Below, in pieces: positions 1,392-18,191 of a stretch of 21,421 nt of DNA (positions are counted from its first letter, which is position 1; every line of letters begins with the position of its first letter). Origin of the DNA: a virus; IMG/VR virus record IMGVR_UViG_3300042516_000445, positions 1-21,421 of that record; one strand, 5' to 3'. The notes below the pieces were generated by a model. The model had not been told where the DNA came from. It did no database searches and saw nothing but the letters and a program-made list of their open reading frames with translations. The translations under genes were made by a program, and so were the position numbers.

Positions 1392-1594
1392 TGAATGATT
1401 ATATTTTGATGGCTATCTTGTTATTAATTAACTCGCTTGGCTGGTTATATACACTTTCTAAGTACAAGCATCTTACAAGCTGGTTAAAAGACCAGGCTCC
1501 TATGACTTGGGAGGTTTATAACCGAGTCGGTAAAACTGGATGTGAATGTGATGAGCTTTGCAATCAAGGCCGTAACTGTAAGAATACTAGATGA
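1391..1594 (+). CDS. Cys-rich single-pass membrane microprotein
   Basis: A 67-residue protein with one N-terminal hydrophobic segment (YILMAILLLINSLGWLYTL, residues 4-22) and a soluble tail carrying four Cys in the pattern C-x-C-x3-C-x5-C near the end (GCECDELCNQGRNC). There is no lipobox, so it is probably an anchored protein rather than a lipoprotein. The Cys cluster suggests a metal site or disulfides. It starts on the last base of the terS stop (TAATG) with GGAGGAAA upstream, and its TGA overlaps the large terminase start (ATGA). It is thus locked into the packaging operon. A lysis-related role (holin- or spanin-like) is conceivable, but nothing specific supports it. Confidence 0.65.
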   Translation: MNDYILMAILLLINSLGWLYTLSKYKHLTSWLKDQAPMTWEVYNRVGKTGCECDELCNQGRNCKNTR

Positions 1595-3150
1595 GCAATG
1601 TAAAAGAGAAAAGTAGTAAGGCATTGCCTGAGGGTGGGATTAATTTAAACTTTTCTAAAAGCCCAGAGATTTATAAGTTCTTACAATCCAAGGCATTTGT
1701 CCGTGCAGTCATGGGTCCTGTGGGGTCTGGTAAATAGTATGCGTGTTGCGCAGAGATATTTATCAAGGCTTTACAGCAAAAGCCCTCCCCTATAGACGGC
1801 ATCCGTTATAGCCGTTTTGCAGTTGTTCGGAATAGCTATCCGATGCTTAAGACTACCACAATTAAGACGTGGTTGGATATGTTTCCTGAGGCTACTTTTG
1901 GACCAATGCTCTATACGCCTCCGATTACGCATCACATCCGTCTGCCAGCCAGAGATGGCGCAGCTGGTATTGACTGCGAAGTTATCTTCTTGGCCTTGGA
2001 CCAGCCAAAAGATGTGCGTAAATTGCTCTCTTTGGAATTAACTGGTGCTTGGGTGAACGAGGCAAGAGAGTTACCAAAGGCTGTCATTGATGGATTAACT
2101 CATCGTGTAGGTCGTTATCCTACAAAACGAGACGGTGGTGCAAGTTGGCACGGCATCATTATGGATACCAACCCTATGGATGATGACCATTGGTGGTACA
2201 GGCTTGCTGAAAAAGAAAAGATGACAGGTGCTTATGCCTGGAAGTTCTTTAATCAGCCAGGTGGCGTGGTTGAGGTAGCCCATGAAGATTTGCCTGAGAA
2301 TCCTGAGGCCAATGACCATATCTTTGCTAGTGGCAAGTGGTGGAAAGTCAATCCTAGAGCTGAGAACCTAGAGAATTTACCAGCTGGTTACTATCAGCAG
2401 ATGCTATTGGGTAAAAACTTGGACTGGATTCGCTGTTACGCAGAGGGCAAATATACCTACGTGCAAGAGGGTAAGCCTGTCTGGCATGAATATGATGACA
2501 ATCTAATGAGTGGGGATGTGGTTTTGGACCCTACCGTACCAATTCAAGTTGGCCTAGACTTTGGTTTGACCCCAGCTGCTGTGGTTGGCCAGCGTTTGCC
2601 GTCAGGTGTGTGGCAAATTCTTGATGAGATTGTTACTTTTGACATGGGTCTTGAGCGATTTGGCCAGCAACTGCTGTCTGAATTGAACGCTAAGTTCCCT
2701 GGTATGCAAGTATTGGTCTGGGGAGACCCAGCTGGTATGCAAAGAGATGCGATTTATGAGGTAACTGCGTTTGATTACCTAAGAACTCTAGGGCTTAGAG
2801 CGCAGCCAACCCCATCTAACGACTTTAAAGTACGTAGAGAATCAGCAGCTGCTCCGATGCAACGACTAATCGGTGGTAAACCAGGGCTATTGGTGAGCCG
2901 TGAGTGCAAGATGTTGCGTAAATCCTTGTCTGGTGGCTACCATTTCAAGCGTATTGCGGTGGGCGCTGGCCATGAACGGTTTAAAGATGCGCCAAATAAG
3001 AACGAACACTCACATATTGGTGATGCTTTTGGCTATTTGTTGCTCGGTGGTGGTGAGCATAAGCGATTAACCAAGTCTAGTGACCTAAGTAACAAGACTT
3101 TTGTGGCTCAAACCGTGGCTAATACAGACTTTGATATCTTTGGCAGATGA
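1591..3150 (+). pseudogene. terL: Terminase large subunit, interrupted by an in-frame TAG in Walker A
   Basis: The full reading is 519 codons plus stop. It begins at ATG 1591, overlapping the previous TGA, and carries TAG at 1735-1737 (codon 49). On either side the sequence is a normal packaging motor. The P-loop GPVGSGK (residues 42-48) is followed by TAG where Ser/Thr is expected. A Walker B-like GAWVNEARE follows near residues 152-160. The C-terminal RNase H-like nuclease has Asp candidates in GLDFG (D323), WGDPAG (D379) and HIGDAFGYL (D478). TerL powers translocation of DNA through the portal and cuts concatemers. No frameshift is present, and the first ATG after the TAG is at 1843, which would give a product lacking the P-loop. 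This is therefore a nonsense mutation, a sequencing error or a suppressed amber; one C-to-A change (TCG to TAG) would explain it. Confidence 0.88.
1735..1737 (+). other. In-frame amber codon at the Walker A Ser/Thr position of terL
   Basis: The codons read GGT CCT GTG GGG TCT GGT AAA TAG TAT GCG, that is GPVGSGK, stop, YA. Homologous P-loops have Ser or Thr after the Lys. The downstream frame stays open for a further 470 codons in the same phase. Two other genes in the window end in TAG, so TAG is not globally reassigned on simple reading. Confidence 0.9.
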
Positions 3151-5275: not shown

Positions 5276-6844
5276 ATGGCTGAAATGATGCGCTTAAAAC
5301 CTGAGGATATTCTCAAACGTCACGACATTGCTCTGGCTAAGAAAGAGGATTTCAGAGACTTGTACGATGAGGCTTATGAGTTCGCTCTACCTCAGCGCAA
5401 TCTCTATGACGGCTATTATGACGGTAAGCGTGGTGGTGCTAAGAAGATGAACCGTATCTTTGATGCAACTGCTATCAGCTCTACTCAGCGTTTTGCTAAC
5501 AGAATTCAGTCAGGCGTATTCCCTCCCCAACGTAAATGGTGCAGACTAGAGTCAGGCCCTGATATTCCAGAGGAGCGCAAGGCTGAAGCCAATGCAGCAT
5601 TAGATGTCTATACAGAGAAGATGTTTGCAACTGTCAAGCAATCTAACTTTGACATTGCTATCGGTGAGTTCTTACTTGACTTGTCAGTTGGTACAGCTGT
5701 GATGATGGTCCAGCCAGGTGATGACGTAGTACCTATTAACTACATTCCAGTACCTCAGTACCTTGTAACTTTTGAAGAAGGTGCTAATGGCCAGGTTGAT
5801 AACGTGTACAGACGTATGCGTTTGAAGGGTGAGGCTATCCAGCAACAATGGAAAGATGCCGTAGTACCTCCTGAGTTGCAGAAGAAGATTGATAACAAGC
5901 CTACAGAGGATTTAGAGTTCATTGAGGCCACAGTCTATGACTACAAGCGTGGTGACTATTGCTACCACGTGATTCACAAAGAGTCTAAGTCTGAGATTGT
6001 TTATCGCAGAATGAAGTTTAGTCCGTGGATTGTTGCTCGCTACATGAAGGTAGCTGGTGAGATTTATGGTCGTGGCCCTGTGATTACTGCATTGCCAGAC
6101 ATTAAGACCTTGAACAAGGTCAAAGAATTAGTATTAAAGAACGCCTCTCTAGCTATCTCAGGCGTTTACACAGCTGCGGATGATGGTGTATTGAACCCAG
6201 CAACTGTGAAAATTATCCCTGGTGCGATTATCCCTGTAGCTCGGAATGGTGGCCCACAAGGCGAATCATTGAAACCACTACCTCGTGCTGGGGATTTCAA
6301 CGTATCACAGATTATTATCAATGACCTAGTGCAGAACATTAAGAAGATTCTGCTAGATGAGTCTTTGCCTCCAGATAATATGTCTGCTCGTTCTGCTACT
6401 GAAGTTGTAGAGCGTATGAAAGAATTGTCTCAGAACCTTGGCTCTGCCTTTGGTCGTTTGATTAACGAGACGATGGTTCCGCTAGTTGCCAAAACTTTGA
6501 TGGTAATGGATGAGCGTGGCATCATTGATATGCCTCTCAAGGTAAACGGTTTAGAAGTTAAAGTCTCTCCAGTAGCTCCATTGGCTATGGCTCAGAATAT
6601 GGAAGATGTGGGTAACGTCACTCAGTTCGTACAGATGGCTGCACAGATGGGACCTGAGGGACAAGCAACTCCTAAGTTTGGTGCGATTGTGGATTACATT
6701 GGTGACAAGCTAGGTATCCCAGCAGCACTAAGGGTTTCCCCTGAGGAGCGACAGTTTAATATGGAGCAAGCGATGGCTCAAGCTCAACAAATGGCTCAGG
6801 AAAACCCTGAGGTTGCATCCGAGGTAGTAAAAACGATGGGGTAG
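5276..6844 (+). CDS. Portal protein (head-to-tail connector, T7 gp8-like)
   Basis: A 522-residue protein, close to the usual length for T7-type portals (T7 gp8 is about 535). Portals form the dodecameric ring at one capsid vertex through which TerL pumps DNA. Recognisable segments are the N-terminal 'FRDLYDEAYEFALPQRNLYD', 'RIFDATAISSTQRFANRIQSG', 'FPPQRKWCRLE', 'IYGRGPVITALPDIKTLNKV' and the C-terminal 'SARSATEVVERMKELSQNLG' followed by 'LINETMVPLV'. These match the bacteriophage head-to-tail connecting family. The C-terminal tail is Gln/Met-rich (EQAMAQAQQMAQENPE). The start is ATG 5276, with AAAAAGGA five bases upstream; a longer reading from TTG 5219 lies in the previous gene. It ends with TAG immediately followed by an in-frame TGA. 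Confidence 0.93.
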   Translation: MAEMMRLKPEDILKRHDIALAKKEDFRDLYDEAYEFALPQRNLYDGYYDGKRGGAKKMNRIFDATAISSTQRFANRIQSGVFPPQRKWCRLESGPDIPEERKAEANAALDVYTEKMFATVKQSNFDIAIGEFLLDLSVGTAVMMVQPGDDVVPINYIPVPQYLVTFEEGANGQVDNVYRRMRLKGEAIQQQWKDAVVPPELQKKIDNKPTEDLEFIEATVYDYKRGDYCYHVIHKESKSEIVYRRMKFSPWIVARYMKVAGEIYGRGPVITALPDIKTLNKVKELVLKNASLAISGVYTAADDGVLNPATVKIIPGAIIPVARNGGPQGESLKPLPRAGDFNVSQIIINDLVQNIKKILLDESLPPDNMSARSATEVVERMKELSQNLGSAFGRLINETMVPLVAKTLMVMDERGIIDMPLKVNGLEVKVSPVAPLAMAQNMEDVGNVTQFVQMAAQMGPEGQATPKFGAIVDYIGDKLGIPAALRVSPEERQFNMEQAMAQAQQMAQENPEVASEVVKTMG

Positions 6845-12502: not shown

Positions 12503-14122
12503 ATGGCAGAACTCCCACGCTACCAACAAACAGGCTTATTGCCAGGTGATACCACCAGATTAGATTTTGCTGATGTTAAAGAAAGCATCAGTATGTCTAA
12601 AGGCATCCAGTCATCTTTGGACCGTATGTCCACTTTTGCATTTAAAGAGGCCGCTGAAAGAGCGCAGCGTGAGGGCGCACAATACGGAGCTGAGAATCAG
12701 CCAGGTGTTGAGCAAGTGATGTTGGCAATTGAGGAAGGTAAGTCTCCAGCAGAATTGTTTGTAAAACCAGGTACTGCTTTTGGTGATGCAGCTCGTAAGG
12801 TACAAGCTACTCAATTGCGTACAGAATTAGAAGTTCGTGGCCGTCAGGATTTAGCAAGGTTGTCAGCAACTTTAGAGGCTGGCCCTGTGGACATGAAAGA
12901 AGTAACCACGCAGATTAAAGGTTTGACCGATGGCTTTAGTAGAGCATTGGCAAGTATTGACCCAGAGGAGTCTCTAAGATTTAGAGCCTCTATGGCTACT
13001 GCTGGTAACGCAGTCTATACCAAGGCAACTGAGAGAGCTGCCAAGATATACCAAGAAGGATTGCAAGTATTGGCTGGTGATTCATTAGCTGCTACCTCAA
13101 CCATTCTTTCTGATACTTTAATGTCAGAGTCAGACCCACTTGCATTGCAAGAGCGTTTCAATGTGGAGCGCAGCCGTGTGTATGAGGTTGCCAAGCAAAC
13201 TGGAGACCCAGCTTTTGTTAAGTCAACAATGGATGCGTTTGATAAAAAACGTCTAAACGCTATTGTGGATTACGTAACTAAGTCTGACTTTGCTCCAACT
13301 CCTATGGCTGGTTTACGCAGACTAGAGTCAAAAGACTTTGGTAAGTTATCCAATATTATGCAGTCCGTGGATATGGACAAGCTCCGTAAGCAATACGTTG
13401 AGCGAGCTGGTGAAACTGCAACTTTATGGAAACGTAGCTCAGAACTAAAAGCAGCTGAGAATATTGACTTAGTTAATAACACTAAAGATGATATTTGGTC
13501 TGGCAAGATTAGTGGTGCTGAAGGCTATAGACGTATCAAGGCATTGGGGGTTACCCTACCTGATGAGGAGCGTAAGGCTTTCTTGCATGGTGACTTTGCT
13601 GGTGCTAATCCTCAGGTGTACGGTGAGTTTGAGTCTATGGCTGACCGTGGTAACTTGGGTGAAGAAGTAATCAATACTTATGCCAAAGCTGGTGTAATCA
13701 GCTGGAAACAAGCTAACGGTCTAAAGAAGATTGCTCGTGGTAATGAGCAAGATATGTCTCGTGCAAGACAGTTTGTACAGAATAGCCTTGGGGTTGCTGA
13801 CATTACTATGCCTGGATTTGGTCAAGAAAAGGCTCGTGTTGCTGAGATTAATACTCAGTTGGCTAAAGAAAAGCAAGAGGCTCTTAATGCTGGCTTGCCA
13901 TTCAACTCTATGGACCGTGCAATGGAGTTGATTAGCGATAAGAAAACGACTCTTATTACTGAAGGTAAAAAAGCATCAAGAGAAAGTCTCAAGAAAAAGA
14001 CTGATGAACTTAAGATTGAGTATCGTGAAGATTACACGGATGAGACTCTTAAGCGTTTGGGTGTTAAGAGCGAAGATGACCGTAGGCGTATTTTAAGAAT
14101 AACTAAGGAAATTCAAAGATGA
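12503..14122 (+). CDS. Internal virion (ejection) protein, T7 gp15-like position
   Basis: A 539-residue, almost entirely helical protein with charged, Ala-rich and Gln-rich stretches (for example 'FAFKEAAERAQREGAQYG' near the start and 'IREYRED'-type segments at the end, including 'KKKTDELKIEYREDYTDE'). There is no membrane segment or catalytic motif. Helical proteins of this size that follow the gp14-like gene form the periplasmic part of the DNA-ejection tube in T7-type phages (gp15 is 747 residues). The assignment rests on length, composition and position rather than on a clear sequence match. Its TGA overlaps the next ATG (ATGA), so translation of the following gene is coupled. Confidence 0.65.
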   Translation: MAELPRYQQTGLLPGDTTRLDFADVKESISMSKGIQSSLDRMSTFAFKEAAERAQREGAQYGAENQPGVEQVMLAIEEGKSPAELFVKPGTAFGDAARKVQATQLRTELEVRGRQDLARLSATLEAGPVDMKEVTTQIKGLTDGFSRALASIDPEESLRFRASMATAGNAVYTKATERAAKIYQEGLQVLAGDSLAATSTILSDTLMSESDPLALQERFNVERSRVYEVAKQTGDPAFVKSTMDAFDKKRLNAIVDYVTKSDFAPTPMAGLRRLESKDFGKLSNIMQSVDMDKLRKQYVERAGETATLWKRSSELKAAENIDLVNNTKDDIWSGKISGAEGYRRIKALGVTLPDEERKAFLHGDFAGANPQVYGEFESMADRGNLGEEVINTYAKAGVISWKQANGLKKIARGNEQDMSRARQFVQNSLGVADITMPGFGQEKARVAEINTQLAKEKQEALNAGLPFNSMDRAMELISDKKTTLITEGKKASRESLKKKTDELKIEYREDYTDETLKRLGVKSEDDRRRILRITKEIQR

Positions 14123-15312
14123 TAGACCAAAGATTCCTTGATGACTTGGCGCAAGACCTAAAGCTACCTGAGGATACTCCTACAGAGGAGATGCAATTAG
14201 CATCTGCTAATACTGGTGTGACTACGGATGCTGGCGGTTTTGTTGGCTATCGCTTGAATATGCCTAAGGGTTTGAATACTCGTGAAAATATGGCTAAACA
14301 ATCTGTATTAATTGCAGATACGATGGCTGGTGGCGGCAAAGGAATGATACAGGCTTTCCCTGGATTGCCAGGTGATTTAGAGTCTATTGGCCGTATGGCA
14401 TTGAACTATCTTGGCTATCAGGTAAATCCAACTACTGCTTTACCTACATCAGAAGAAATTGGTAGGCGTTTAGAGTCTGTGCTTGGCCCAGTCATTCCTC
14501 CTAACCAAACTACTGGCGTACCTACGGCAGAGCGTGAGAGAGCAGCTGGCGGTGGTGAGTTAGGTGGTGAGTTGTTAGCTCCAGGTGGACAGGTTAAGTT
14601 GGCTAGTACGCTTGCAAAGCCTGTTATTAAATCTACAATTAAGATGCTTGATGGCACAGAGCAGACATTGCAAAAAGCTCCAAAGATTGAAAGCAAAGCA
14701 TTTAAGAATTGGTTTGGAGAATCTAAAGCCGTTGATGACGGTGGAAAACCTATAGTTGTTTATCACGCTAGGCGTGGTGATTTTGAGGCTTTTGACCCTG
14801 ATAAAAATGATGGCAAGACAGTTGGCACAGGTACGTTCTTTAGCTCATCTCCGTTTGTATCTGCAACCTACAATACAAGTTCTGAGCATAGCTTAGTACC
14901 AGCTTACTTGAGTTTAAAAAAGCCATTCATTGTTGACTTTAATGATGCCAACTGGAATCGTGGTGGTGCTGATGCAGTCGTAAAGATGCCTGATGGAACA
15001 GATGATGATTTACTTTCATACTTTAATGCTGGTCCAGATGAATTTGTATCAACTGATGAAGTTGCAAGATTAGCAAGAATCAGAGGATATGATGGCGTAA
15101 TCATAAAAAATGTTGTGGACCACGGCCCAGCTGGCAGATTCTCTACTGAAGAAGCATTTAATCCTAGCGATATATATGTTGCCTTTGAGCCTACTCAGAT
15201 AAAATCCGCAATAAGCAATAAAGGTACGTTTGACCCTAAAGACCCTGATTATCTAAAAGGTATAGGCGTTGGTGGTACAGGCGCAGCAATGTCTCAAGAG
15301 GAAAATAAATAA
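14119..15312 (+). CDS. Virion-associated protein with ADP-ribosyltransferase (ART-PolyVal-like) domain
   Basis: A 397-residue protein of two parts. Residues 1 to about 190 are an ejection-type linker with 'GLPGDLESIGRMALNYLGY' and 'ALPTSEEIGRRLESVLGP', as seen at the start of many phage polyvalent proteins. Residues about 195-380 match the ART-PolyVal class of ADP-ribosyltransferase domains: 'FKNWFGESKAVDDGGKPIVV' then YHAR (Y215, H216), 'GTFFSSSPFVSATY' (238-251), 'AYLSLKKPFIVDF', 'IRGYDGVIIKNVVDHGP' and 'YVAFEPTQIKSAISNKGTFD' with E357 as the likely catalytic Glu. Such domains transfer ADP-ribose from NAD+ to proteins or nucleic acids. It lies between two ejection proteins with overlaps on both sides, so delivery into the host at infection is likely, as with T4 Alt. 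The usual YHGT motif is YHAR here. Confidence 0.8.
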   Translation: MIDQRFLDDLAQDLKLPEDTPTEEMQLASANTGVTTDAGGFVGYRLNMPKGLNTRENMAKQSVLIADTMAGGGKGMIQAFPGLPGDLESIGRMALNYLGYQVNPTTALPTSEEIGRRLESVLGPVIPPNQTTGVPTAERERAAGGGELGGELLAPGGQVKLASTLAKPVIKSTIKMLDGTEQTLQKAPKIESKAFKNWFGESKAVDDGGKPIVVYHARRGDFEAFDPDKNDGKTVGTGTFFSSSPFVSATYNTSSEHSLVPAYLSLKKPFIVDFNDANWNRGGADAVVKMPDGTDDDLLSYFNAGPDEFVSTDEVARLARIRGYDGVIIKNVVDHGPAGRFSTEEAFNPSDIYVAFEPTQIKSAISNKGTFDPKDPDYLKGIGVGGTGAAMSQEENK

Positions 15313-18191
15313 TGGCAATCAAACCGTTAAACGACAGACTAGACGAGTTATCAGGTGTTGAGCAAGATACAGCTCAGTTACCTCCAGAGACTCAGCCATT
15401 AGAGCAGATTGCTTTAGATAATGAACCAGTAGAGTTTGAGACAACGCAAGTTGCTGGCATTAAAGATATTGCTGAGATTATTTTAAAAGCTCCTAAGCGC
15501 ACTAAAAAGCCTGTGATTCAAGAAGGCGCAGCAATGGAGAAGGTTGGTCCATATCAGGTTATCAAGGATGTAACTCCAGCAGAGGCTGAGACAATCCTAC
15601 AAGAGGCTCCTAAAATGCCTGTATCAGGTAAGCCATCTGCTCCTCCTGGTGTACAAGAGACTGCATTTAACCTAGACCTTATCAAAGATGAGGATGGCGT
15701 TAAGCAATTTATTGAGGCTACTGCTCGCAGCGTAGGCGCAGATAAGTTACAGAAAATCAGTTACAAAGAAGTAGCTACCAAAGCTGCTGAAGATGGATAC
15801 GATGAGACTTTCTTAGCTCGCATGATTGACCCTAATGCTCCTACTCTTGCAGACCCTACACAGGCTTACAAGATGCTATTGGCTATTACCGATGCTGGTA
15901 AGAGAGCCTTTGATTTAGGTGAGCAAGTAAAGGCAGCTAAAGCTGACGGCACTCTTACGCCTGAGTTGGCTAGTCAATTCCAGCAAGCTATTGCTTTAGA
16001 GAACGTATTGGTCAGAGCCTCTCGTGGCAGACAAGCTGATATCGCTAGAACGTTAGGTATCTTCTCTCAAGCTCGTGAATCCTCTGCTATGCGTGGCCAG
16101 ATGCTTGAAGGCTTGATGACTGAGGCTGGTGGTATTGAGTCAGTCTTTGATATGGCTAATAAGTACACAGCCCTAGACTCACGCTCTGCTAGAGCTAACC
16201 TATCTGCTGATATGTTTGCCAATGGATTGGTTAAGACTAAAGATATTTGGATGAGTACATGGATTAACGGCCTATTGTCTAGCCCAGTTACTCATGCTAA
16301 GAACATTGCTGGTAATACATTCTTTGGTGTGTATCAAATCCCTGAGAGAGCTTTGGCATCTGCCATTGGTTCTGGTCGTAACTTGTTATTCAAGGGTGGT
16401 GAGCAAGGCATCAAGATGAATGAAGTGCAAGCTCAGGCCATTGGATTCCTACAAGGCATCCGTGAAGGTGGTGAGATATCCATTACTGCGTTTGCAAAGA
16501 ATCAGCCTACTGATGCTTTCTCCAAGATTGAAGATGTGCGTGTAGGTAGAGATGCTTTTGATATTGATTTTGGTGACGGTGAGACAGGCAAGGCCATGTC
16601 TAATGCCTTACGTTACTGGGGTAAGTTTGTAACATTGCCAGGCCGTGCATTGATGGCTGAAGATGAATTCTTTAAAGCCGTAGGTTATCGTATGGAGTTG
16701 AACTCTCTAGCAGTTAGAGAAGGCAACAATATGTATGACAGCTTGATTCGCTCTGGCATTGCTCCAGATGATGCCTCAAGACAATCATCTGAGTTGGTTG
16801 CTAGTTTATTAGCCAGCCCTACTCCTGATATTGATGAGGCAGCTAAGGCAGTATCTCGTACTGTAACCTTTACTCGTGAGCTAGAGACAGGCGTTTTAAG
16901 CGGTATGCAACAAGCTGCTCAGAATCCATTGATTAAGATATTTGTACCGTTTATCAAGACTCCTACCAATATCGCTTTGGAAACCATGTCTCGTACTCCA
17001 GGCTTGAACTTTGCATCTCCTAGATTCTGGGGTGATTATAACGCTGGTGGCATCCGCAGAGACCAAGCCTTAGCTCGTGTTACTTTGGGTGGTAGTTTGA
17101 TTTACGCAGCTGGTAGCTACTCGCTAGAGGGTCGCTTAACTGGTTATGGCCCAATGCGTACAGAAGATAAGAAAGCCCTAGAGGGTGGTGGCTGGCAGCA
17201 ATTCTCATTGGTCTTTGATAAGGCTGATGTAAGCCCAGAGACTTTGGCTGAGTTTGAGCAGATTACCTCTGTGAAGTATGGCCCTGATAAGGTATATGTA
17301 AGCTACGCTGGTATGGAGCCATTGGCTACTTTGTTGGCCATTGCCTCTACATCTGCTGAGTATTCCATGATGACTCCAGGCGGTACAGATACAGAGAAGA
17401 TTGCTATGGGTGGTGCTTTGGGTATCTATCAGTACCTATCAGACCAGCCAATGCTACAAGGCTTTGGTGAAATCACTAAGGTATTTAGCTCAGGTAAGAA
17501 GGATGCTCCTGGCATCTTTGCTGACTTGTTGAAGAAAGTAGTTAAGCAAGCGACTGAGTTTGGCATCGGTGGCTCTCCAGTTGGCGCACATAGTTCATTC
17601 GTGGCTATGGTGGAGCGTACTATGGACCCATCTAAATCTAACACAATGCCTAGCTCTATGGCTATTAGCTCTACAGAACCAGCTGCTCGTGGATTCTGGG
17701 AGGCAGTCAATTACTACAAATCTCGTAACCCATTGACTTCAGACAGTTTACCTCGTGGTTTAGACCCTATTACTGGTGAAGTACAGAAGGCTGGCAAGGG
17801 TAACTTGTATGAGGCAGTAAGCCCATTCAAGACATCTGATGGTAAGTTCTCCCCAGCTTACGCTACCTTGGTTGAGTATGGCGTACCAGCTTATCAGCCT
17901 AAGCGTTCTATAGATGGCGTTGAATTGTCTGCATCTCAGTACAACCGTTGGATTGAGTTATCCACAGGTGACGGCAGACTGGCTGATGCTATTACTGCTT
18001 ATGGTAAGTCTCCTGACATTCAATCACAGGCTAATCGTGACTTGGCAAGTGTTCAAGCCATGATTGCTCAAGAGATATCTAATGCTTATGAGATGGGTAA
18101 AAAGATGTTGGTTCAAGAGGACCCAGATTTACGTGATGCCCTAGAAGATGTGGCAGAGGCTAAACGTGAATATGGTAAATATAAACGCTAG
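15312..18191 (+). CDS. Large internal virion (ejection) protein, gp16-like position
   Basis: A 959-residue protein, largest complete gene in the window. A low-complexity N-terminus (residues 1-115; Pro/Glu/Thr-rich) leads to a helical body. Segments I associate with large polyvalent or ejection proteins of podophages are 'STWINGLLSSPVTHAKNIAG' (about 315-334), 'GRALMAEDEFFKAVGYRMEL', and 'FVPFIKTPTNIALETMSRTP' (544-563), followed by 'VTLGGSLIYAAGSYSLEGRL', a possible membrane-interacting stretch. It probably forms the inner-membrane part of the DNA ejection channel. I see no lytic transglycosylase signature like that at the N-terminus of T7 gp16. Start overlaps the previous TAA; the stop is TAG with an in-frame TAA three codons later. 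Confidence 0.75.
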   Translation: MAIKPLNDRLDELSGVEQDTAQLPPETQPLEQIALDNEPVEFETTQVAGIKDIAEIILKAPKRTKKPVIQEGAAMEKVGPYQVIKDVTPAEAETILQEAPKMPVSGKPSAPPGVQETAFNLDLIKDEDGVKQFIEATARSVGADKLQKISYKEVATKAAEDGYDETFLARMIDPNAPTLADPTQAYKMLLAITDAGKRAFDLGEQVKAAKADGTLTPELASQFQQAIALENVLVRASRGRQADIARTLGIFSQARESSAMRGQMLEGLMTEAGGIESVFDMANKYTALDSRSARANLSADMFANGLVKTKDIWMSTWINGLLSSPVTHAKNIAGNTFFGVYQIPERALASAIGSGRNLLFKGGEQGIKMNEVQAQAIGFLQGIREGGEISITAFAKNQPTDAFSKIEDVRVGRDAFDIDFGDGETGKAMSNALRYWGKFVTLPGRALMAEDEFFKAVGYRMELNSLAVREGNNMYDSLIRSGIAPDDASRQSSELVASLLASPTPDIDEAAKAVSRTVTFTRELETGVLSGMQQAAQNPLIKIFVPFIKTPTNIALETMSRTPGLNFASPRFWGDYNAGGIRRDQALARVTLGGSLIYAAGSYSLEGRLTGYGPMRTEDKKALEGGGWQQFSLVFDKADVSPETLAEFEQITSVKYGPDKVYVSYAGMEPLATLLAIASTSAEYSMMTPGGTDTEKIAMGGALGIYQYLSDQPMLQGFGEITKVFSSGKKDAPGIFADLLKKVVKQATEFGIGGSPVGAHSSFVAMVERTMDPSKSNTMPSSMAISSTEPAARGFWEAVNYYKSRNPLTSDSLPRGLDPITGEVQKAGKGNLYEAVSPFKTSDGKFSPAYATLVEYGVPAYQPKRSIDGVELSASQYNRWIELSTGDGRLADAITAYGKSPDIQSQANRDLASVQAMIAQEISNAYEMGKKMLVQEDPDLRDALEDVAEAKREYGKYKR

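Follow-up and report, generated by a model that had tools for sequence, protein, structure and literature searches.

An amber codon at the Walker A serine of a viral large terminase gene, private to one metagenomic record and probably a consensus error

In the virus record analysed here (IMGVR_UViG_3300042516_000445; the window, 21,421 bp), the large terminase gene carries a TAG codon exactly where the P-loop serine is expected. We consider this TAG to be probably an isolated C-to-A nonsense change without function, private to a single assembled record, with an error in the consensus sequence as its most likely source. Taken literally, the record codes for an incomplete TerL. The window record is itself probably partial, since related records are ~34 kb long.

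The terL frame and its amber codon

The features on which the analysis rests are as follows, all on the + strand of the window.

1591..3150 (+), terL reading frame from translation, homologous to the TerL of Methylophilales phage MEP301 and of ~190 viral-contig loci
1714..1737 (+), Walker A / P-loop GPVGSGK[TAG], aa 42-49; relatives have Ser (192 loci) or Thr (2 loci) in column 49
1735..1737 (+), in-frame TAG, confined to the window record; TCG in the nearest relative (L198), and no stop at the same P-loop position elsewhere in viral_contigs
1843..1845 (+), first in-frame ATG past the TAG (codon 85), from the ORF list
2044..2061 (+), Walker B / catalytic Glu GAWVNE, aa 152-157, each column 94-100% conserved
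2557..2559 (+), nuclease Asp D323 (GLDFG), 100% conserved
2725..2727 (+), nuclease Asp D379 (GDPAG), 100% conserved
3022..3024 (+), nuclease Asp D478 (HSHIGDAFGY), 98% conserved
6842..6844 (+), TAG as genuine terminator of the portal gene
18189..18191 (+), TAG as the true stop of the internal virion protein gene

Translation of 1591-3150 gives 519 codons followed by TGA, and the TAG at codon 49 is the sole interruption: 48 residues ending in VMGPVGSGK, then the TAG, then 470 open codons up to the TGA. A previous reading made from the sequence only had placed the TAG directly after GPVGSGK, and our translation confirms this, exactly at the Walker A Ser. Its description of an unbroken 470-codon continuation with Walker B and nuclease motifs is equally borne out, with nuclease acids that are 98-100% conserved in relatives. 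Compared with the TerL Walker A consensus G-x-x-G-x-G-K-[S/T], every residue is there except the last Ser/Thr, which is replaced by the stop. The other hallmarks of a TerL are all found in the window, namely Walker B with its catalytic Glu, a three-acid RNase H-like nuclease (D323 is presumably one of its acids, by analogy with RNase H-like TerL nucleases) and homology to known TerL. The frame matches annotated TerLs in tblastn and the terminase large subunit family PHROG 10250 (E 8e-5), while the 435-aa TerL fragment matched no Pfam family and no PDB structure by sequence. The TerL homology of the frame is beyond chance similarity.

The gene context agrees with that of MEP301. The window terL is flanked by a TerS-like gene upstream and an acetyltransferase-like gene downstream, and both phages share a similar local order of ssDNA-binding protein, TerS, small ORFs, TerL and acetyltransferase. 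The MEP301 TerL (MW452941, gp45) is 80% identical in amino acids over aa 86-517, but its gene is annotated as one uninterrupted CDS, and the codon-49 TAG occurs only in the window. Two ways in which the window could still supply TerL were examined and rejected: the record holds no second TerL copy, and a restart at ATG 1843 would yield a product lacking the whole P-loop. Elsewhere in the window, a gene of the structural region (14119-15312) matches the ADP-ribosyltransferase domain of polyvalent proteins (PF18760, E 7e-23) and has no more than weak partial homologues among the relatives compared.

Codon 49 and selection among relatives

Aligning relatives at codon 49, as the sequence-only reading had proposed, gave Ser in 192/194 and Thr in 2/194 of the TerL loci other than the nearest relative, and never a stop; some of these loci overlap and are not all independent. 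The sense codons used are TCA, TCC, TCT, AGC, TCG, AGT, ACT and ACG. Across ~96,000 aligned codons of the 194 loci there is no premature stop in TerL, and the lone stop falls at residue 518/519, the natural C-terminus. Because the homologous frame in relatives has the same 519 codons without a gap, the window TAG arose by substitution and involves neither insertion nor frameshift. When the P-loop pattern was followed by TRR (TAA, TAG, TGA or TGG), nothing matched in viral_contigs, whereas the same pattern with any codon matched at least 109 stretches. Related TerLs in bacterial genome assemblies amounted to three distant matches, none of them informative on codon 49. Alignment of nine window genes to relatives (~230,000 codons) found other stops only near the beginning of the portal frame, within its first 23 codons. 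These apparent stops in the relatives' portal genes, at aa 9-23, probably precede the true start.

A search pattern derived from the P-loop flank of the window recovered L198 (IMGVR_UViG_3300047545_000075), the nearest relative in our searches. A further pattern scan gave no other close relative in the searched set, outside which records very near the window may lie. L198 encodes a full-length TerL with TCG at codon 49, and is otherwise identical to the window over codons 40-57. A single private C-to-A change thus separates the two, in agreement with the earlier proposal that the TAG arose from TCG by one such step. Over terL, L198 and the window share 95.1% nucleotide and 98.65% amino acid identity; their differences are synonymous in 62 codons and non-synonymous in 7, codon 49 included. 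With codon 49 excluded, dN is 0.008, dS 0.21 and dN/dS ~0.04. The other six missense changes fall in variable columns and give residues also present in relatives, and the window TerL departs at 0/108 columns conserved at ≥99% in relatives. The low dN/dS and the lack of deviation at conserved columns indicate strong purifying selection on terL up to the very recent past. Beside terL, the small ORF between TerS and TerL (1391-1594) does not align to L198 within a region that is otherwise 93-96% identical, which suggests that close relatives exchange this segment.

The position of the stop is less striking than it first appears. In L198 terL, 205 one-step nonsense changes are possible in 160 codons, and 14 of them are C-to-A changes, codon 49 included. 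As one of 205 possible changes, and one noticed post hoc, the exact Walker A Ser position needs no special explanation and is probably a matter of chance. In being a single-base, private change in an otherwise intact frame under purifying selection, the TAG resembles the isolated nonsense codons of metagenome-assembled genes, and what sets it apart from them is its location at the Walker A Ser, a probable coincidence.

Inteins at the P-loop of related terminases

One relative (L042) has its TerL P-loop split by an intein between codons 45 and 46 (GPVG^C...HHN^SGKS). The element is absent from the window, and an intron or intein remnant at the P-loop was rejected for the TAG because the window frame aligns without gaps across the site. 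Two features overlap in L042.

L042:1525-2394 (+), intein
L042:1547-2263 (-), HNH homing-endonuclease-like ORF inside the intein, on the opposite strand

Similar inteins are present in ~30 further loci (L204-L233), at the same site in those inspected. In 23/23 inspected intein loci, the sense frame is open throughout and the complementary strand contains a long ORF, which in all four members tested is an HNH_3 endonuclease with weak helix-turn-helix matches. Among 18 aligned loci, sense codon position 3 is most variable at the intein ends (aa 1-20 and 261-289), sense position 2, which faces antisense position 3, is most variable over aa 61-240 (less clearly so at aa 81-100), and aa 21-60 are constrained at every codon position. 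This pattern of codon-position divergence indicates selection on the sense strand at the intein ends, where the splicing blocks would lie, selection on the antisense strand in the middle, where the endonuclease would be encoded, and a dual-coding stretch. Intein homologues also occur in the cultured phages Pseudoalteromonas phage PHS3 (L235) and Pectobacterium phage Ymer (L236). In PHS3 (KX912252), the annotation places an HNH gene in antisense orientation immediately ahead of a TerL that lacks its start; the deposited TerL begins past most of the intein, which leaves the N-terminal part of TerL and the intein outside the annotated gene (L235:1589-3567). In Ymer, the sense frame is annotated as a single 2265-bp hypothetical protein. 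TerL P-loop inteins are already known (PMC5050341). We found no description of an antisense endonuclease within a TerL intein in the open-access papers searched, which is not proof of novelty, and the intein with its opposite-strand HNH gene may deserve separate study.

Consensus error, null allele or recoding

A consensus error would have arisen by miscalled bases, damage or low coverage in the metagenomic contig, and the phage itself would then probably encode an ordinary Ser49 TerL. C-to-A changes are a common damage-related error class. Nothing similar is seen in any relative, which favours an error, and window genes with homologues align to relatives at full length and unbroken, save a few diverged ones. 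Against an error, the TAG lies 1.7 kb from the contig end and not at its edge, and no other obvious error was noticed in the window. General decay or poor assembly was rejected, as the other window genes are unbroken apart from the few diverged ones and no other near-invariant TerL column deviates.

An otherwise clean terL gene would be equally expected of a very recent real mutation. The TAG could therefore be a recent terL null allele, dead alone or packaged via a co-infecting intact relative, which we regard as possible though rather unlikely. It is one step from L198, and a very young mutation would leave everything else in the gene intact and selected, as is seen here. However, a premature terL stop in 0/194 relative loci implies that such alleles normally do not reach consensus, and the window shows no other decay. 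One would also expect lethal alleles of essential genes to be much less frequent in a population than read errors where coverage is thin, and for this reason we judge an error likelier than a null allele. Both options, error and defective variant, had been listed in the sequence-only reading and remain; the high significance given to the TAG there is unsupported.

Amber suppression, in which a phage or host tRNA with a CUA anticodon would insert Ser or another residue to give full-length TerL, is very unlikely. The frame past the TAG is intact, and ~13 kb of genome probably lies outside the record, given related records of ~34 kb. However, the search for a suppressor tRNA that had been suggested found no tRNA gene of any kind in the window, in 14 related records (several of ~34 kb) or, with ARAGORN, in MEP301 or any further locus scanned. 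The nearest relative has TCG, no other window gene contains an in-frame TAG, and TAG terminates window genes. In the portal and internal virion protein genes, a second in-frame stop follows within two codons of the TAG, so that terminal use of TAG alone would not exclude weak suppression. Stop-recoded crAss-like phages, which carry suppressor tRNAs, also have in-frame TAG in an essential late gene. Unlike in those phages, where many genes contain TAG and termination avoids it, the window has one in-frame TAG, ends genes with TAG at 6844 and 18191, yielded no suppressor tRNA, and has relatives with a sense codon.

Regulated readthrough that delays or limits TerL synthesis is scarcely credible. 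It is favoured by nothing more than the location of the TAG in an essential late gene and the open frame that follows, whereas the stop is conserved in 0/194 loci and is absent even from the 95%-identical L198, which largely refutes it as a trait of the lineage. Ordinary stop readthrough inserts Gln, Tyr or Lys, against only Ser or Thr in the 194 loci. A literature search on terminase amber readthrough returned general recoding papers only, among them PMC7886860 on crAss-like phages. Reassignment of TAG to an amino acid such as Gln can be practically dismissed, since nothing beyond the single codon suggests it, no tRNA was found, and two window genes end with TAG, which stands in frame within none but terL; a Gln at this position would violate the P-loop consensus, and the earlier view that it is atypical there holds.

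In conclusion, the TAG in this terL gene is probably a consensus error. It is very unlikely indeed that the TAG is fixed in the population with TerL active only through Ser-inserting suppression by the host or the remaining genome, and the present data give this no support. If it were true, packaging would be restricted to suppressor hosts, a striking tie of packaging to host translation. More generally, our analysis suggests caution: when a stop falls on a catalytic residue in one contig, close relatives should be checked before recoding or suppression is invoked.
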